This document shows, piece after piece, positions 1-14,867 of a stretch of 14,867 nucleotides of DNA (position 1 is the stretch's first letter; each line of letters starts with the position of its first letter). This DNA comes from Epsilonproteobacteria bacterium 4484_65 (GTDB taxonomy: Bacteria > Campylobacterota > Campylobacteria > Campylobacterales > Sulfurovaceae). The position numbers were made by a program, and so were the translations under genes. The notes beneath the pieces were generated by a model. That model made no database searches and had not been told where the DNA came from. It worked only from the letters and a program-made list of their open reading frames with translations. Where the stretch lies: the NCBI GenBank assembly GCA_002085305.1, contig NATJ01000008.1, positions 1-14,867 on the forward strand, written 5' to 3'.

Positions 1-373
1 TACCCCCTATAATAGCAGCTATTCCCAAAAGGGCATTAATATCCAACATAATGGCGGCATAGATAGTATCACGGGCCAAAACAGGGTTATGCTCATGCAG
101 CATCATAATAACGATGATAACGATCTCCACAACAACGGCAGAGATCGTTAAGATAAGTGTCCCATAGGGTTCCCCAAACTTTTCTGCAAGCATCTCTGCA
201 TGGTGTGCCACAGACATGGCAGCATACATAATAACAGCAAACAAGACGGCAAAACCTATAAGGTTTCCTACTGTTGTCTGTACCAAGGTATGTTCAAAGT
301 AGCTGATAATAAAATAGGTAATGATGGCTATAAAGAGACTGTACTCTTTTGAAAAATCTTTAAGCAATTGCAT
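1..373 (-). CDS. chaA: Calcium/proton antiporter, ChaA type (partial, N-terminal ~124 residues)
   Basis: The minus strand stays open from an ATG at 373 to the window edge, giving about 124 residues. After a short polar start (MQLLKDFSKEYSLF) come hydrophobic segments near residues 13-30 and 38-55. The stretch HHAEMLAEKFGEPYGTLILT, then a hydrophobic helix, a His-rich MMLHEHNP segment and VLARDTIYAAIMLDINALLG, follow the ChaA (Na+/Ca2+ exchanger superfamily) N-terminal repeat, including the GEPYG-TLIL motif that precedes the acidic ion-binding helix. Family members exchange cytoplasmic Ca2+ (or Na+/K+) for external protons in the inner membrane. The ATG shares one base with the TAA stop of the upstream HTH gene (CTAATG), so translational coupling is likely. 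The C-terminal repeat is outside the window. Family assignment is firm; ion specificity is not determined. Confidence 0.82.
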   Translation of the reverse strand, partial: MQLLKDFSKEYSLFIAIITYFIISYFEHTLVQTTVGNLIGFAVLFAVIMYAAMSVAHHAEMLAEKFGEPYGTLILTISAVVVEIVIIVIMMLHEHNPVLARDTIYAAIMLDINALLGIAAIIGG

Positions 374-1017
374 TAGACTAAGAGATCCTTATATTTTTTG
401 TTTGCATTGAGTTTAAGTTTCCCATCCTCTTTCATCAAACGTGCATCTCCCCTTTTATAGGCTTTTTTCAAACTTTTCAGTACTTTTTCTTGCTGTTTCT
501 CTTTCGTGACACCCAGTTGTTTGAAAAATTTTTTAATCCCTATCCAACGTTCTTCTTCTACCTCAACACTATCCTCTTCTGTGACCACTTCGATGGCCTC
601 TTGCGGTTTTTTCTGTTCAAGTCTATGTACATACAATGTACGCATTTCATGAAACGCTTCTTTAAGCAGATCTATTTCACTTCTGAGTGTAGTTGATATC
701 TGTTTGTTGCTCTTTTTAAGATCTTTGACCGTGCCCTTTAGTACAGCTATCGTTTCATCTTTAGCTTCAAGCAGTGCCTTGTAATCTCTTTGTGGATTTT
801 CTGTAGAGGTAGATGTTGTTTTAGCAGTTGCAGGTTTTTGTTTTGGTTCTTGCGCAGATTTTGAAGTCTCATTTGCTGTTGTGTTGTCAACCACGATGTA
901 AAGTTTACCTTCTACACTTTTAGCTGTAAGTATGCCTCTTTTTATCTTTGCATAGACTGCTTGCCTCGAGATACCCAGTTCTTTGGCATACTCTGCCGGC
1001 TTCATCAACTTTTCCAT
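373..1017 (-). CDS. Helix-turn-helix / coiled-coil protein of unknown function
   Basis: 214 residues. Residues 4-28 (MKPAEYAKELGISRQAVYAK, then IKRG) form an excisionase/MerR-like helix-turn-helix, followed by a short beta-like KLYIVV. Residues 50-80 are a low-complexity K/T/S/Q linker, and about 80-140 are charged and heptad-like (EAKDETIAVLKGTVKDLKKS onward), consistent with a coiled coil. The C-terminal 60 residues are very basic, with a second helical domain (WIGIKKFFKQLGVTKEKQQE). It could be a DNA-binding regulator or nucleoid-type protein. I have a faint recollection of DUF3972-type Campylobacterota proteins with this build, but could not verify it. The ATG at 1017 follows a purine-rich AGGGGTAGGA ribosome site. 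The stop overlaps the chaA start by one base, so it is probably the first gene of a two-gene operon. Repeated TTTACAAA motifs lie just upstream. Confidence 0.75.
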   Translation of the reverse strand: MEKLMKPAEYAKELGISRQAVYAKIKRGILTAKSVEGKLYIVVDNTTANETSKSAQEPKQKPATAKTTSTSTENPQRDYKALLEAKDETIAVLKGTVKDLKKSNKQISTTLRSEIDLLKEAFHEMRTLYVHRLEQKKPQEAIEVVTEEDSVEVEEERWIGIKKFFKQLGVTKEKQQEKVLKSLKKAYKRGDARLMKEDGKLKLNANKKYKDLLV

Positions 1018-7914: not shown

Positions 7915-10284
7915 TTATTGACAACCCACACACTCTTGACTACGATCCTCAACATCGCCAGAAGCTTCAGGAGACTGACTTCTTAGGTAATAAGTAGACT
8001 TCAATCCAAACTTCCAAGCATTCATATAAATCTCATTCAAATATTTACCACTAGCTTTATCAAGCGTAATGAAGATGTTCAAACTCTGTCCTTGGTCTAT
8101 CCATTTCTGACGGATAGCTCCAGCTTTAATGAGCAAGTTTTGATCTAGGTCATAACTTGGCGTATAGTACTGCCATGTCTCTGAAGAGAGGTTTGGTGCA
8201 ACTACGGGGATGAGTCCGGAAAGGTTCTCTTCAAACCATTTACGTTTGTATACAGGCTCAATGGCTTGTGTCGTACCCGTTAAGATAGAAATAGAAGATG
8301 TAGGGGCGATAGCCATCAAATACCCATTTCTCATACCATCAGTTTTGACTTTCTCTTTGAGTGTCTGCCAGTCGTGACTGTATCCGAAGAGCCCACCTCT
8401 GTCAACCAGTTTACAAGCATTCTCATTGGCTTTGTCAATAGGGAAGATACCTTTCGACCAGTCAGACCCTTCATAAGTAGGGTACTGTCCTTTCTCCAAC
8501 GCTAAGTCACTTGAAGAACGGATAGCATAATAAGAGAGAGACTCCATCACTTCATCTACTTTGGTAAAGTGTTCATGGCTTCCCCACTCTATCTTGTTTT
8601 CTGCAAGCATTTGTGCTTCACCCATCACTCCTAGACCGATGGATCTTGATTTTTCATTGGTCTTCTTTACTTTTGCAAGAGGGTAGAAGTTAAGGTCTAT
8701 GACATTGTCAAGCATACGAACTGCAGTTGGTACAACACGTGCAAGATCTTCTTGTGTATGGATCTTTGACAAGTTGACAGAGGCAAGGTTACATACTGCT
8801 GTGTCACCATCTGTTTTCTCTTTGTCAACGATCCAGATCTGTCTACCGTTCAAGCTGTCAAGTGCTGTCACTTTCTTAGCCGGTTTGGTCATACCACTAT
8901 CGACTGTTAACATCTCATGCTCATCATAAGCTTCTACAGAACCATCTTCAAATGTAAACTGTGTTCTGTATGTGTTTGGTCCTGTATTCTGAAAGATCTC
9001 TGTACAAAGATTTGAAGATCTGATGATACCTGCATGTTTATTGGGGTTTGATCTGTTTGCTGAATCTTTAAAAGTAAGGAATGGATTTCCTGTTTCAAAA
9101 TAAGATCTAAGTATCTCTTTCCAAAGTCCTTTAGCAGAGATCACTTCTCTAGTAATATTATCATCAGAATGTTCAAGCTCTATGTAACGCTTCTCAAAAT
9201 CTTCACCATAAAGCTCTGTCAGTTCCGTCACTTCAAAAGGGTCAAAGAGTGTCCAGGTACCATCCTCTTCTACTCTTTGCATAAAGAGATCATTCAGCCA
9301 CATAGCAGGGAAAAGGTCATGTGCTCTACGACGCTCTTCGCCGGAGTTTTTCTTCAAGTCAAGGAAGTCTCTTACATCAACATGCCAAGGTTCTATATAA
9401 ACTGCTATAGCCCCCTTACGTGTTCCTAGTTGATCAACAGCGATGGCAACATCATTGGCTATCTTAAGGAAAGGGACGATACCACCCGCAGCATGTTTAT
9501 GTCCATCAATGTATGAACCCATACCACGAACAAGTGACCAGTCCCAACCGATACCACCACCAAACTTGGAAAGCAGTGCCATCTCTTTGTAGCCATCAAA
9601 TATACCTTCAATGTTGTCTGGTGTTGAACCTATGTAACATGAACTTAGTTGGTGTCTAGGTGTTCTGGCATTAGAGAGTGTAGGTGTAGCTGCCATCACT
9701 TCAAATTTACTCAAGATATCGTAGAATTTCTTTGCCCATGTTTGGCAGTCAAACTCGTTTTGTGCCAAGAACATCGCTACACCCATAAAGAGTTGTTGTG
9801 GAAGTTCTATAGGTACACCATCACGATCTTTAAGTAGATATCTATCATAGAGTGTTCTGATACCAAGGTAAGTAAACTGCAGATCTCTCTCTGGCTTGAT
9901 ATAGTCATTCAGGTCATCAAGGTCATATTTGTCTTTGAGTCCAAGTACGATACGCCCCTCTTTCTCTCCACGTTCAAAATGCTCACGAAGGTGATTGTAT
10001 CCTGTAAAGCCTACTGCCTTATGATAGATATCATACAAAAAGAGTCTGGAAGCTACAAAGGTCCAGTTAGGTCTGTCAATATCGATCTTGTCAACTGCTG
10101 TTTTAATAAGGGTTGTTTGTATCTCCTCGGAGCTGATCATGTCACGAAACTGGAGCTTTGCATCTACTTCTAATTCACTCTGGCTTACGTTGTCTAAACC
10201 TTCTACAGATGCTGCTGTATATTTCTGAATCTTGGATACGTCCAAGGTCTCTACTCTTCCGTTTCGTTTCACAACTCTGATCAT
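7915..10284 (-). CDS. nrdA: Ribonucleoside-diphosphate reductase, class Ia alpha subunit
   Basis: 789 residues. This is the catalytic R1 subunit, making dNDPs with NrdB in the cytoplasm. Residues 1-90 form an ATP-cone allosteric domain (MIRVVKRNGRVETLDVSKIQ). The redox cysteines are Cys216 (QLSSCYIG) and Cys498 (AVCNLASVN). The active-site loop SSNLCTEIFQ gives Asn425, thiyl-radical Cys427 and Glu429, and the radical-transfer pair is Tyr765-Tyr766 (KSTYYLR). The tail ECVGCQ supplies the thioredoxin-reducible CxxC (785/788). Between Cys427 and Cys498 there are 71 residues, about 48 more than the E. coli spacing as I recall it, rich in D/E/T. Same strand as purB but 258 bp downstream, with its own upstream inverted repeat. 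GGGAG precedes the ATG at 10284. Confidence 0.97.
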   Translation of the reverse strand: MIRVVKRNGRVETLDVSKIQKYTAASVEGLDNVSQSELEVDAKLQFRDMISSEEIQTTLIKTAVDKIDIDRPNWTFVASRLFLYDIYHKAVGFTGYNHLREHFERGEKEGRIVLGLKDKYDLDDLNDYIKPERDLQFTYLGIRTLYDRYLLKDRDGVPIELPQQLFMGVAMFLAQNEFDCQTWAKKFYDILSKFEVMAATPTLSNARTPRHQLSSCYIGSTPDNIEGIFDGYKEMALLSKFGGGIGWDWSLVRGMGSYIDGHKHAAGGIVPFLKIANDVAIAVDQLGTRKGAIAVYIEPWHVDVRDFLDLKKNSGEERRRAHDLFPAMWLNDLFMQRVEEDGTWTLFDPFEVTELTELYGEDFEKRYIELEHSDDNITREVISAKGLWKEILRSYFETGNPFLTFKDSANRSNPNKHAGIIRSSNLCTEIFQNTGPNTYRTQFTFEDGSVEAYDEHEMLTVDSGMTKPAKKVTALDSLNGRQIWIVDKEKTDGDTAVCNLASVNLSKIHTQEDLARVVPTAVRMLDNVIDLNFYPLAKVKKTNEKSRSIGLGVMGEAQMLAENKIEWGSHEHFTKVDEVMESLSYYAIRSSSDLALEKGQYPTYEGSDWSKGIFPIDKANENACKLVDRGGLFGYSHDWQTLKEKVKTDGMRNGYLMAIAPTSSISILTGTTQAIEPVYKRKWFEENLSGLIPVVAPNLSSETWQYYTPSYDLDQNLLIKAGAIRQKWIDQGQSLNIFITLDKASGKYLNEIYMNAWKFGLKSTYYLRSQSPEASGDVEDRSQECVGCQ

Positions 10285-10542: not shown

Positions 10543-11871
10543 TCATTTAAATACTCTTCTGAAAATCGCATCTACATTTTTAGTGTAATAATCAAAATTA
10601 AAACACTCTCTGATCTGCTCTTCAGAAAGTGACTCTCTTAGCTCATCATCGGCAAGCAGATACTGAAGGTAAAGTGACTCACCTTCATCATTGGTAGTAG
10701 ATTTACCTTGTTGGATCTCTTCCCATACTTTCATCGCGTTACGCTGTACAATTCTGTATGCATCTTCACGACTCACTCCTGCTTTAGGAAGCTCAAGAAG
10801 CACTCTTTGAGAGAATACCAACCCACCAGTAAGGTTTAGGTTTTTCATCATGTTCTCAGGCATTACAGTAAGGTTAGCAATAACGTTATTCATACGATGC
10901 ATCATGAAGTCACACGTGATGAAAGAGTCTGGTAACCAGAAACGTTCTGTTGATGAGTGAGAAATATCTCTTTCATGCCATAATGCTACGTTTTCCATAG
11001 CTGGTGTGATATAGGCTCTAACCATACGTGCAAGACCTGTGATGTTCTCTGTCAATATAGGGTTTCTTTTATGTGGCATTGCAGAAGATCCTTTTTGACC
11101 TTTTGCAAAATACTCTTCACACTCATATACTTCTGTACGTTGCCAGTGTCTTACTTGAACAGCAAATTTTTCAATGCTTGATGCAAGAAGCCCCAGTGTT
11201 GTAGCCAGTCTGGCATAACGGTCTCTTTGGATCACTTGGTTTGATGCAGGTGCAGGTTTAAGTCCCAACTCTTCCATCGCATACTCTTCAAGCTCAAGAG
11301 GAGCATGAGCAAAGTTACCCATGGCTCCAGATATCTGACCTACAGATATCACATCCATTGTCTGCTCTAAATTTGTTAAGTGTCTAGCCATTTCATCATA
11401 CCACACTGCAAGGACAAGACCAAAAGTGATAGGCTCGCCATGGATACCATGAGAGCGTCCCACCATCAAAGTCATCTTGTGTTCCATTGCTCTTTTTTTG
11501 ATAGACTCCATTATCATCTTTGTGTCTTCAATGATGATCTTGAGTGATGCTGTCATCTGTAAAGCAACAGCAGAATCAACCGTATCTGAAGATGTCATAC
11601 CATAGTGGAACCATCTACTCTCATCTCCAAGTGTTTCAGATACAGAAGTGGTGAACGCGATAAGGTCATGTCTTGTCACTGCTTCTATCTCATCGATACG
11701 CTCTACCGAGAAACCTGCATTGTCAACGATCTTTTGTGCATCATCATCAGGGATAAGTCCCAATTTATTCCATGCTTTAACAACTGCTATCTCTACATCA
11801 AGCCATGCTTGATACTTTGCCTGCATCGTCCAATTCTTTGCCATCTCTTCTCTTGAATATCTTTCGATCAT
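10543..11871 (-). CDS. purB: Adenylosuccinate lyase
   Basis: 442 residues, the Bacillus-like length. It cleaves SAICAR to AICAR and adenylosuccinate to AMP, releasing fumarate, in purine synthesis. The fumarase/aspartase superfamily signature is GSSAMPHKRNP (261-271) with the flexible-loop catalytic serine at 262-263. Catalytic histidines are His68 (VTRHDLIAF) and His141 (VGRSHGIHGEPITFG). MTSSDTVDSA (92-101) is the third conserved block. The ATG at 11871 has AAGGG six bases upstream. The promoter has a good -35/-10 pair with 17-bp spacing. It is divergent from the pseudouridine synthase gene and upstream of nrdA, an order I recall from Campylobacter jejuni (Cj0022c-purB-nrdA). Product purine nucleotides are substrates for the reductase encoded next to it. 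Confidence 0.97.
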   Translation of the reverse strand: MIERYSREEMAKNWTMQAKYQAWLDVEIAVVKAWNKLGLIPDDDAQKIVDNAGFSVERIDEIEAVTRHDLIAFTTSVSETLGDESRWFHYGMTSSDTVDSAVALQMTASLKIIIEDTKMIMESIKKRAMEHKMTLMVGRSHGIHGEPITFGLVLAVWYDEMARHLTNLEQTMDVISVGQISGAMGNFAHAPLELEEYAMEELGLKPAPASNQVIQRDRYARLATTLGLLASSIEKFAVQVRHWQRTEVYECEEYFAKGQKGSSAMPHKRNPILTENITGLARMVRAYITPAMENVALWHERDISHSSTERFWLPDSFITCDFMMHRMNNVIANLTVMPENMMKNLNLTGGLVFSQRVLLELPKAGVSREDAYRIVQRNAMKVWEEIQQGKSTTNDEGESLYLQYLLADDELRESLSEEQIRECFNFDYYTKNVDAIFRRVFK

Positions 11872-11943: not shown

Positions 11944-12870
11944 ATGCCATTCGTTAAAGAGAAGTTTATCGTACCAAAGAAAATGCCGGCATTTCTATTC
12001 ATCATGCGTACTTTTAACTTTACCCAAGGACAAGCACAACGTGTATTGGCAAAAGGTAGATTACTCATTAATGGAGAATCTATATTCAATACTGGGGAGT
12101 CTATAGAAGGGAATATAGAAATTGTCTATTTTAAACCTTCATCAAAAGGCAATACCCCACTCTTTCACAACAAAGACTTCATGGTATTTGAGAAGTATTC
12201 AGGTGTTTTAGTACATCCCAATACCATGGCAACACCTTACTCTTTGCTTGATGAGATCCGTACCGTTTCAGGAGACAATGCCAATGCTGTGCATCGCATC
12301 GATATGGAAACTTCTGGTCTTTTACTTGCCAGTAAACACAAGAAAGCAGAGTCCTATCTGAAAATGTCCTTTGAAGACAGAAGCATCAAAAAATCTTACC
12401 TTGCCTGGGTAGATGGAAAACTCACAGAACCTTTTTCTTCAAGTGAGTCCATTAAGATAAACAACGACTACAGCCAAACTAAACACAAGGTATTTATCTC
12501 TGCCGAAGGTAAAGCTTCACACACAGACTTTGTTCCCCTTGAATACGATGAAAATCTTGATGCCACACTTGTAGCCTGTTACCCTCATACGGGAAGAACC
12601 CATCAAATAAGAGTCCATTTGTTTCACGTGAAACATCCTATCTTGGGTGACCCTATCTACGGTACAACCTTTAAGACAGCTAATGATTATTTGGAAGATG
12701 AACTGAGTCCTGAAGATCGCATGACAAAAATGGGAGCAAGCAGACTGATGCTTCATGCACAGAGCTTGACATTTAACTTTGGTCCTAAATTTCATATAGA
12801 GAGTAGGAGTGATTTTAAGGGGATGAAAGATTTAATTTGTCCAAAAGACAAGAGGATTTTTAATTCGTAG
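11944..12870 (+). CDS. RluA/RluD-family RNA pseudouridine synthase
   Basis: 308 residues, normal for the family. It isomerises specific uridines of rRNA (or tRNA) to pseudouridine. An N-terminal S4-like RNA-binding domain (about 15-65: MRTFNFTQGQAQRVLAKGRL, then LINGESIF) precedes the catalytic domain. Motif I is FMVFEKYSGVLVHP (79-92) and motif II is AVHRIDMETSGLLL, with catalytic Asp120. KKSYLAWVDG and HTGRTHQIRVHLFH, with GDPIYG, follow as in RluA/C/D. Which of RluA, RluC or RluD it equals cannot be decided, so no symbol is given. The ATG at 11944 has only a weak purine-rich AAAAGGG upstream. The codons for FHVKH carry a perfect parS site (12620-12635). No clear terminator; a long palindrome follows about 80 bp downstream. 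Confidence 0.92.
   Translation: MPFVKEKFIVPKKMPAFLFIMRTFNFTQGQAQRVLAKGRLLINGESIFNTGESIEGNIEIVYFKPSSKGNTPLFHNKDFMVFEKYSGVLVHPNTMATPYSLLDEIRTVSGDNANAVHRIDMETSGLLLASKHKKAESYLKMSFEDRSIKKSYLAWVDGKLTEPFSSSESIKINNDYSQTKHKVFISAEGKASHTDFVPLEYDENLDATLVACYPHTGRTHQIRVHLFHVKHPILGDPIYGTTFKTANDYLEDELSPEDRMTKMGASRLMLHAQSLTFNFGPKFHIESRSDFKGMKDLICPKDKRIFNS
12620..12635. promoter_or_regulatory. parS centromere site 1 (perfect)
   Basis: TGTTTCACGTGAAACA is a perfect 16-bp palindrome identical to the bacterial ParB-binding parS consensus (TGTTNCACGTGAAACA). It lies inside the pseudouridine synthase gene, where it encodes F-H-V-K-H; location inside genes is normal for parS. It should nucleate ParB spreading for chromosome segregation. 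Confidence 0.9.
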
Positions 12871-12948
12871 ATCAGGTGTCTTCTCCCCGATATAAGTTTG
12901 TTTTTCTAAATTGCCTTTTTACTTAATCGTGGTGGTGTTTCTCTCGTC

Positions 12949-13028
12949 TACCCCAAGGGCACTTCCTCACTTTGTTCACGGCGTTTTTTTAGAAAAAATT
13001 TACGCCCAAAGGAAGTGCCCTTGGGGTA
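12949..13028. repeat. 19-bp perfect inverted repeat within the 12871-13332 gap
   Basis: TACCCCAAGGGCACTTCCT (12949-12967) and AGGAAGTGCCCTTGGGGTA (13010-13028) are exact reverse complements. Inside them GGCGT/ACGCC (12980-12984, 13002-13006) and a T6/A6 pair (12985-12990, 12993-12998) stack to a second hairpin. The right arm ends on the first base of the repeat-B core. Copy A lacks these arms, so they look like an insertion into, or an end variant of, the repeat. It could also stop transcription from both converging genes. Confidence 0.75.
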
Positions 13029-13251
13029 CAAAAAATCGTCGTGGCTCTCGAATCGCTTTGCTTTCAAGGGCGTTCACCACGACACGGTTTTTTAATATAT
13101 CGAGGCTATCACCAACTACTAAGCAACACCTATAAATAAACTGTAAACGAGCCATCAATCTTTTCTCTAATTACTTTGTGTCGCTTACTCTTTTTTCTTT
13201 TTTAGTTACTTCTTTCTTTTTTCGTCGTAGTACAAAAAAGAAAAAAGTAAC
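12984..13251. repeat. Long intergenic repeat, copy B
   Basis: Same orientation and order of parts as copy A: TTTTTTTAGAAAAAA (12984-12998), the 88-bp core (13028-13115) with GTCGTGG and CCACGAC, a diverged part with CAATCTTTTCT, and a closing inverted repeat (13205-13222 with 13234-13251, one mismatch in 18). The T7 block is 25 bp further from the core than in copy A because of the 19-bp arm. It lies in a convergent gap (pseudouridine synthase / rlmN side), as copy A does. Short open frames across it are low-complexity and not shared between copies. Confidence 0.8.
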
Positions 13252-13311
13252 AGAGAGAAACAACATCACAATCAAGATAAAGGGTAACCAAACAAAACAA
13301 AAAACCATTAT

Positions 13312-13327
13312 TGTTTCACATGAAACA
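13312..13327. promoter_or_regulatory. parS-like centromere site 2 (one change)
   Basis: TGTTTCACATGAAACA differs from the parS consensus only at the central CG, where it has CA. It is intergenic, five bases beyond the stop of the 33-residue membrane protein. Weaker ParB binding is likely, but it lies between two perfect sites. Confidence 0.7.
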
Positions 13328-13332
13328 AAGAC

Positions 13333-13434
13333 CTACTTCTCATCCTCCGAACGAGAATCATAAATAATCCACCCCACACCAATAGCAGCAACAATCACAA
13401 CAAACCCCAGCATAAATAATTCCAAAGTAGGCAT
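13333..13434 (-). CDS. Small single-pass membrane protein, 33 residues
   Basis: The frame reads MPTLELFMLGFVVIVAAIGV, continues GWIIY, and ends in a charged tail DSRSEDEK before a TAG stop. Residues 5-25 form one hydrophobic helix with a short, acidic hydrophilic C-terminus. The ATG at 13434 comes one base after the rlmN stop (TAGTATG), with AGGGGGAAG, an excellent ribosome site, inside the last rlmN codons. This close coupling, the ribosome site and the clean topology make it very likely a real gene in the rlmN operon. Function is unknown; I do not recognise the family. Confidence 0.72.
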   Translation of the reverse strand: MPTLELFMLGFVVIVAAIGVGWIIYDSRSEDEK

Positions 13435-13435
13435 A

Positions 13436-14509
13436 CTAAACTTCCCCCTCTGACTCTTGCTCCCTAAGCTGCCCACAGGCCGCAGAGATATCTAACCCTT
13501 TAGACTCACGAATCGTACAATGTAACCCTCGGGAAGTCAAGAACTCCTGAAATTCTTTCATGTCTTTCACTGAGGGACGCTTAAATTCAGTGCCCCCATA
13601 CGGGTTAAAATAAATCAAATTTACTTTTGCTTTTATACCATCAAGAAGACTCAAAAGTTTCTTCGCAGCAGAGATATCATCGTTGACATCTTTGATGACA
13701 AGATACTCAAACATAACTCTTTTTCTATCGTTGATAGGAAAGTTCTTCACTGCATCTATAATGGACTGGATATTATATGCTTTGTTAATAGGCATCAACT
13801 GTTGTCTAAGCTCATCATCTACTGCATGCAGCGAGATGGCCAGATTGATCCCAAGCTCCATTTTCCCAAGCTTCTCTATCTTGGAACTGAGTCCTGAAGT
13901 GGAGATCGTTTGACGATGTGTGGCAATAGCCATCCCCTCTGGATCTGCAAATATCTCTACAGACTTAACTACTGCATCCAGGTTGTCAAGAGGCTCACCC
14001 ATACCCATATAAACGATGTTGACACGACGGTTGGCATCTATCTCATTGTCTTTTTTGATCATACGCAATTGTTCCGTAATTTCACCCGCAGTCAAATTAC
14101 GCATAAAACCGCCCTTTGCAGTCAAACAAAAGGCACACCCTACCTTGCACCCTACCTGAGAGGAGATACATACTGTATAGCGTTCCTGATGCTTTACAGA
14201 GCCATCTTCATGATACTCCTTCTCTTTCATCAAAAGGAGTACGGCTTCAACCGTATGCCCATCATGAAGTTCAAAGAGATATTTCCGACTTCCATCTATA
14301 CTGTCTTGCACAGTAAGTGTCTTGAGTGGTGTGAGTGTATACTCAGCATCTAGCTTCTCACGCATCTCTTTTGGAAGATTTTTCATCTGCTCAAAACTAT
14401 CTACATACTTATGATAGATCCAAGAGTAGATCTGCTTTGCTCTAAAAGAGGGTTTGATCAATTGACTTAACTCTTCTTTTGTAAAATCTTGTATTATTTT
14501 CTTATTCAT
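13436..14509 (-). CDS. rlmN: Dual-specificity 23S rRNA / tRNA adenine-C2 methyltransferase
   Basis: 357 residues. This radical-SAM enzyme methylates C2 of A2503 in 23S rRNA and A37 in some tRNAs. The iron-sulfur cluster motif CxxxCxxC is Cys121, Cys125 and Cys128 ([19 protein letters not shown]). The SAM-binding GMGEPLDN block ([14 protein letters not shown]) and the ISTSGL segment follow. The methyl-accepting cysteine near the C-terminus is Cys345 ([10 protein letters not shown]). The N-terminal [13 protein letters not shown] helix bundle is typical for RlmN. Presence of ISAACGQL points to RlmN rather than its resistance relative Cfr, though this was not tested by alignment. The ATG at 14509 has GGAAAG nine bases upstream. 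The gene lies between a phosphorylase-like gene and the 33-residue protein, with a REPIN just upstream. Confidence 0.95.
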
Positions 14510-14522
14510 ATTTATTCTTTCC

Positions 14523-14574
14523 GTAGGGTCGATTTATCGACCTATTAATAATTTTGGTCGTTAACCGACCCTAC
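14523..14574. repeat. REPIN-like double palindrome 2
   Basis: Left arm GTAGGGTCGATTTATCGACC (14523-14542) faces right arm GGTCGTTAACCGACCCTAC (14556-14574). Each is GTAG plus a small hairpin. The left arm equals REPIN 1 except for G to C and C to G at the two paired positions, so the hairpin is conserved by compensating changes; the right arm has a one-base shorter loop. The right arm's GTAG contains the TAG stop of the upstream gene. Confidence 0.8.
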
Positions 14575-14867
14575 TTTTTTACTCTCTTCATAACATACTC
14601 TGTAAGTTTCACCATTGCTTCTTTTTGATTTTTTAAGAAATCATCATGTGCATTTTCATCACAGTAGTTTGTTACAATAAAAATACCGCCTGCTGAAATA
14701 CCAAATGCTTGAGCCACTTTCAGTACTGCATAATATTCCATATTTTCTAAATGTATATTTTGTGCCAGATAATATTTACCTAGACTTTTATCTGTAGTAA
14801 TATAGTTAGAAGAATTCACAAGTGTTTCACGTGAAACATCTTTTGTTGTAGAAACAACATTATCTAT
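14571..14867 (-). CDS. Nucleoside phosphorylase / nucleosidase family protein (partial, C-terminal part)
   Basis: The minus strand is open from the window edge (14867) to the TAG at 14571, about 98 residues; a GTG at 14819 is internal, not the start. The segment NIHLENMEYYAVLKVAQAFG carries the Met-Glu active-site pair of the PNP/UDP phosphorylase and MTA/SAH nucleosidase superfamily. GGIFIVTNYCDENAHDDFLK and a final amphipathic helix follow, as at the C-terminus of those enzymes. The substrate (purine nucleoside, or methylthioadenosine/S-adenosylhomocysteine) cannot be decided without the N-terminal half. A perfect parS site lies in its codons V-S-R-E-T. The stop is provided by the GTAG end of REPIN 2, so the last residues (KRVKK) may have been altered by that insertion. 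It is followed by rlmN on the same strand. Confidence 0.75.
   Translation of the reverse strand: MDNVVSTTKDVSRETLVNSSNYITTDKSLGKYYLAQNIHLENMEYYAVLKVAQAFGISAGGIFIVTNYCDENAHDDFLKNQKEAMVKLTEYVMKRVKK
14823..14838. promoter_or_regulatory. parS centromere site 3 (perfect)
   Basis: TGTTTCACGTGAAACA again matches the parS consensus at all 16 positions. It is inside the partial phosphorylase-like gene (codons V-S-R-E-T on the minus strand), 2.2 kb from the first site. Confidence 0.9.

Follow-up and report, generated by a model that had tools for sequence, protein, structure and literature searches.

The stretch analyzed here, a 14,867-nucleotide contig of Epsilonproteobacteria bacterium 4484_65 (NATJ01000008.1, assembly GCA_002085305.1; called the window below), carries three copies of a palindrome, TGTTTCACGTGAAACA, two of which lie inside protein-coding genes. 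We consider it very likely that these palindromes are chromosomal parS sites and that selection for ParB binding has kept both coding sites in place, largely setting six residues in an RNA pseudouridine synthase and five in a nucleosidase-like protein. The parS cluster itself is real and ordinary; its retention in coding sequence over much of the order is the unusual part and is well supported. The three sites are as follows.

12620..12635, no strand: parS site 1, zero changes, inside the pseudouridine synthase gene, over codons L-F-H-V-K-H
13312..13327, no strand: parS site 2, one change (CACATG center), in the gap where the pseudouridine synthase and rlmN genes converge
14823..14838, no strand: parS site 3, zero changes, inside the minus-strand nucleosidase-like gene, over codons V-S-R-E-T

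A first-pass annotation of the window had reported two perfect palindromes, at 12620 and 14823, plus a third at 13312 that differs at one central base; all were found as described, and the window has no others within three changes. The annotation had thus recognized the parS cluster, yet it missed the coding position of two of the sites, and the further sites that it expected to the right did not appear in relatives (see below). It had called chance occurrence negligible; with three changes allowed, 200 dinucleotide shuffles of the window gave a mean of 0.12 sites and a maximum of one, never three. The whole-genome search that it proposed covered 1,127,112 bases on 124 contigs (the window is contig C39) and found nothing within two changes beyond the same three sites; a backwards-read control matched one place with up to two changes and none with up to one. 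Copies are few and clustered: three lie within 2.2 kb, and the rest of this 72.1%-complete draft genome yielded none.

To follow site 1 in close relatives, we picked 46 Campylobacterota loci by peptide words outside the motif, leaving out 13 Bacillus-like loci. Since 37 of the 46 are labeled Sulfurovum (the other nine are assigned only to higher groups), family f1 is taken to be Sulfurovaceae. The homologous codons form a parS with at most one change in 45 of the 46 loci, 41 of them perfect and four with one change. The sole exception, L017, reads FHIQH at the motif and retains, close to the 5′ end of the gene, a site with one change. An additional one-change parS-like site, AGTTTCACGTGAAACA or CGTTTCACGTGAAACA, was seen at gene position +20 in L017, L019, L022, L025, L028, L029, L039, and G003 (L066).

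The same codons were compared across the order. The pseudouridine synthase gene is present in 91 of 100 order genomes (E up to 1e-30), and 86 of these genes were examined (G184, G187, G207, G211, and G217 were left out). A parS occupies the homologous codons in 51 of the 86 (32 perfect, 18 with one change, and one with two), distributed over nine families (f1, f3, f5, f8, f9, f15, f17, f18, and f20). The encoded peptide is FHVKH in 46 of these 51 genes, FHMKH in three, and FHVEH in two; none of the three occurs in the 35 genes without a site, 20 of which have IGH there. On a tree of the pseudouridine synthase built without the motif columns, presence and absence of the site require five label changes, against a mean of 27.4 for shuffled labels. 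Five changes fit one gain and four losses (in G167, in G153, in G222, and in a group of f2, f6, f7, and f10), although this quick tree, with its root not inferred and many weak forks, does not prove a single origin.

Site 3 has a similar distribution in an unrelated protein. The nucleosidase-like gene is present in 98 of the 100 order genomes, and 97 copies from 20 families were examined, excluding the copy in the window, which is cut by the contig end. When a placing within three codons is allowed, 62 of the 97 have at the homologous codons a parS of at most two changes (16 perfect, 37 with one change, and nine with two), all in one frame and in 13 families. The peptide is V-S/P-R/H/C/Y-E/G-T, matching what changes in parS would give. 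On the nucleosidase tree, which has few columns, 12 label changes are needed against a shuffled mean of 28.9. Where a coding site is missing, another is often close by. Namely, the second gene is without a site in both g11 genomes (f1), which have a perfect copy some 0.3 kb away from the first site, and four of the seven f15 genomes with the first site and without the second have another one-change site in the stretch examined; G222 (f15) has the second site, with two changes, and lacks the first. As a separate observation, three genomes of genus g40 in f9 (G186, G198, and G228; loci L317, L312, and L314) have ParB but lack any parS within one change; their nucleosidase codons read AGTTTCACAAGAAACA or TGTTTCACAAAAAACA (VSQET and VSQKT), a decayed or shifted site.

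Synonymous variation at these codons speaks for selection on the DNA itself. In the 51 genes with parS, synonymous diversity over FHVKH is 0.134 (median, 0.524), the lowest of 284 five-codon spans, while the same span is ordinary in the 35 genes without parS (0.591; median, 0.511). Among the 46 related loci it is 0.068 (median, 0.527), second only to the overlapping LFHVK (0.056). The VSRET span behaves likewise, with 0.067 (median, 0.496) in the 62 genes with parS, which ranks second of 169 behind the overlapping DVSRE, and 0.401, rank 31, in the 35 genes without. Codon choice within site 1 is correspondingly narrow: valine is GTG in 48 of 48 cases (17% elsewhere in the gene), leucine ends in TG in 46 of 46 (30% elsewhere), and lysine is AAA in 49 of 49 (78% elsewhere). 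Histidine is encoded by CAC in 41 of 51 genes and by CAT in the other ten, which are center variants; phenylalanine, TTT in 46 of 51 against 82% elsewhere, is less telling.

Further evidence comes from the 40 genomes that have both coding sites. Eleven are perfect at both, eight are center-changed at both, eight are perfect at the first and center-changed at the second, six have TGTTCC/GGAACA at both, and seven show other combinations. The six TGTTCC/GGAACA pairs all belong to f18, where they make up six of seven genomes, the seventh being center-changed at both sites. In four of these genomes, all of one genus, the variant leaves the first protein unchanged and replaces E with G in the second; in the other two, of another genus, it replaces K with E in the first protein and S with P in the second. 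Two proteins thus accommodate one DNA variant by way of different residues. In G177 (f15), TGTTCC occurs in the first gene and the second gene has no site at its codons.

Probably, then, selection for the centromere has maintained and in part determined residues of two proteins, a reading drawn from sequence comparison: synonymous variation is lowest or second lowest where the site is present and not in site-free homologs, and f18 carries a paired variant. With more modest confidence, we lean toward the view that two enzymes have been shaped by a centromere, that shifts in parS forced the f18 replacements, and that lineages lacking the site in the pseudouridine synthase show other residues there, most often IGH.

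The source genome encodes candidate partners for such sites. The first-pass annotation had placed parA, parB, and dnaA outside the window, and indeed a ParB DNA-binding piece was found on contig C72 (HTH_ParB, E 3.0e-31) and DnaA on C110. The nearest solved chain to the ParB piece is the chromosome-partitioning ParB of PDB 4umk (E 5.6e-38), which we take to be a Helicobacter pylori protein. An adjoining 261-residue frame is complete and ParA-like (AAA_31, E 2.5e-70). Counted from the KSR motif in Caulobacter numbering, as used in PMC7383237, the ParB piece has R173, T179, S184, and G201, a placing made by eye and without gaps. According to the part of that paper available to us, R173 and G201 are absolutely conserved among ParB orthologs.

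We then asked how common the sites and the protein are among relatives. At least one site with up to one change is present in 133 of 150 genomes of the family sample and in 82 of the 88 of good quality. Among the 100 order genomes, the commonest number is exactly two, found in 53; 16 have one, 11 have three, one has four, and 19 have none. Taking a match with E below 1e-10 as a convincing ParB, six of the eight order genomes without one have no site, against 13 of the 92 with one (Fisher p = 5e-4 over 100 genomes, uncorrected for relatedness). Four f21 genomes that are 96 to 98% complete (G181, G193, G205, and G215) lack a match to DnaA, a convincing ParB, and any parS within one change; f21 is apparently a family of the order without DnaA.

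The first-pass annotation had read the cluster as a centromere region, and this is supported by its proximity to dnaA in relatives, by GC skew, by the low copy number, and by the ParB piece. Distances were taken from 56 relatives in which dnaA and parS are listed on one contig (22 of the 150 family genomes and 34 other members among the 100 order genomes). Among the matches listed, the parS nearest to dnaA lies at a median of 27.9 kb and at most 85.2 kb in the 22 family members, and at a median of 22.4 kb and at most 66.3 kb in the 34 others. The centromere reading holds because parS is near dnaA in these 56 relatives. Two single-contig genomes outside these figures, G042 and G122, have parS toward the far end of contigs that start with dnaA. 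The comparison with GC skew that the annotation had called for was made in G033 and G024, from 10- to 12-kb samples amounting to about 9% of each single-contig genome; the sign switches at the dnaA end, and the other switch falls at about 1.0 to 1.2 Mb. An even scatter of copies, named in advance as the result that would contradict a centromere, was not seen, since relatives have zero to five sites with up to one change per genome. The parB gene is itself remote from dnaA, at a median of 27% of the contig and more than 100 kb away in 36 of the 37 genomes with both on one contig, unlike the origin-proximal parAB known from other phyla.

As to the expectation of more sites beyond the right edge, the most distant site of at most one change among the 46 related loci lies 3.3 kb past the pseudouridine synthase start; the sequence after the gene reaches the full 10 kb in 29 of these loci and is shorter, down to 2 bases, in the rest. 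L017 has one parS-like site with two changes 7.2 kb after that start. In 14 of the 46 loci a middle site with no more than one change lies at +0.9 to +1.6 kb; in seven of them it is perfect.

The genes around the sites, for which rluD (pseudouridine synthase) and pnp (nucleosidase-like) served as working labels only, are the following.

11944..12870, plus strand: RluA-family RNA pseudouridine synthase gene (PF00849, E 1.5e-27; TIGR00005, 151.2 bits, under the cut-off of 192.7)
13436..14509, minus strand: rlmN, RNA methyltransferase, between sites 2 and 3 (TIGR00048, 452.6 bits; cut-off, 290)
14571..14867, minus strand: PNP_UDP_1-type nucleosidase-like gene, C-terminal part, cut by the right contig edge (homology to L007)
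10543..11871, minus strand: purB, adenylosuccinate lyase, a conserved neighbor (PF00206, PF10397; synteny)
7915..10284, minus strand: nrdA, ribonucleotide reductase alpha subunit, a conserved neighbor (NF006279, 1549.8 bits; PF02867; synteny)

The nucleosidase-like fragment is 75% identical to residues 79 to 175 of the L007 gene product, a full-length relative of 182 residues (PF01048, E 5.8e-15) that is nearest to nucleosidase models, yet under their cut-offs. The order nrdA, purB, pseudouridine synthase, rlmN, and nucleosidase is found in the same orientation in 32 of the 46 related loci, the remaining 14 missing one or more of the five genes from the stretch examined. This order also occurs in members of f5, f8, f9, f15, f16, f17, and f18. 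In f7, the stretch beside the pseudouridine synthase gene includes neither rlmN nor the nucleosidase gene, and there the pseudouridine synthase and nucleosidase genes both lack a site at these codons. At the left end of the window, positions 373 to 1017 (minus strand) encode a DUF3972 protein whose first residues weakly match a helix-turn-helix.

Several observations weigh against centromeric sites maintained by selection for ParB binding. The dnaA and parB genes of the source genome are on contigs other than that of parS, and its ParB frame (L004, 1120 to 1686, minus strand; 188 residues) is incomplete, with the N-terminal domain missing, perhaps through a frame break or an assembly fault. 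The 13 ParB-bearing genomes without any site of up to one change belong here as well; five of them (G029, G157, G195, G199, and G239) have a two-change site at the nucleosidase-gene position. Conversely, G154 and G226 have sites without a convincing ParB, both assemblies being in hundreds of contigs. Some sites lie far from the origin: three of the four in G208 are at 133 to 145 kb, and a lone one-change site in G024 (G024:C1:705328-705343, TGTTTCAAGTGAAACA) is 705 kb from dnaA and about 42 kb from parB. The paired variants of f18 may represent as few as two events. In f17, all six genomes with both sites are perfect at the first and CACATG at the second, and this split, with the eight of 40 perfect/center-changed pairs, indicates that variant pairing is not general. 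Finally, the sets of genes with sites were picked by their parS match, so their low diversity follows in part from that choice; the 46 related loci, picked regardless of parS, give the same low diversity.

Other explanations place the constraint elsewhere. The peptides L-F-H-V-K-H and V-S-R-E-T could be kept because the enzymes need them, the palindromes being a by-product of codon choice. Both genes are indeed as widely conserved as the counts of 91 and 98 of 100 genomes indicate, and parts of the first motif persist in some site-free homologs (histidine at position 2 or 5). Yet it is where parS is present, not where it is absent, that synonymous positions are most constrained; moreover, the first-gene peptide is absent from all 35 site-free homologs, one palindrome is spelled by two unrelated proteins in different frames, and the variants shift together in f18. 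We regard a requirement of the enzymes as highly improbable and set it aside because of the codon evidence. Scarcely less doubtful, and still very unlikely, is that the sites bind ParB mainly to regulate their host genes. A precedent is reported from Pseudomonas aeruginosa, where ParB represses promoters beside parS3 and parS4 (PMC5521831), but the draft genome yielded no sites within two changes other than these three, and a spare site is often near a missing coding one (in both g11 genomes and four of the seven in f15). That the sites are part of a plasmid-like or integrated element instead of the chromosomal partition system seems to us almost beyond belief: the draft genome does not place the contig beside dnaA, but nrdA, purB, rlmN, and other housekeeping genes surround the sites, synteny is conserved, and single-contig relatives have parS near dnaA.

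Under the centromere reading, which we prefer, ParB of this Sulfurovum-like bacterium would load at the three palindromes and then spread; together with ParA, and probably also SMC, it would separate newly copied origin regions. We infer that ParB binding, segregation, and SMC loading take place at these sites and that the enzymes tolerate the residues rather than need them. The arrangement offers a clean natural case in which one stretch of DNA carries two codes, for a protein and for a centromere, and in which recurrent losses and shifts in sequence invite comparison. It allows a test of how far a segregation site dictates enzyme residues and gives a ready list of parS variants to compare with ParB. 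It also cautions against taking conservation of a peptide across families as proof that protein function is what preserves it.

A literature search covering titles and the starts of abstracts found no paper on this coding arrangement; because a 2006 paper on H. pylori parS and a 2007 survey fall outside that search, an earlier mention of both coding positions is possible. The portion of PMC5438104 (Campylobacter jejuni) available to us contains nothing on parS, and that of the review PMC7022226 contains nothing on Helicobacter or coding sites. Compared with known systems, the sites resemble those of chromosomal ParABS in being 16-bp palindromes, in having few and clustered copies near dnaA in relatives, and in being accompanied by a ParB piece and a ParA-like gene. 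The system is unlike ParABS in that two sites are coding at fixed codons over many families and that parB is far from dnaA. A likeness to the Soj/Spo0J system of H. pylori (HpParA/HpParB, with its putative parS) lies in PDB 4umk, the nearest solved ParB, presumably from that species. Sites within genes are shared with P. aeruginosa, whose intragenic parS were mutated without altering the proteins (PMC4368675); the available part of that paper is silent on conservation at fixed codons and on proteins following the site. Noc and the Noc-binding sites (NBS) offer a likeness in a related protein family and a palindromic target. According to the available part of PMC7383237, Noc has Q173, K179, K184, and R201, and NBS are spread genome-wide. 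Neither feature was found here, where the residues are R/T/S/G and the parS copies are not spread, the NBS sequence itself not having been searched for.

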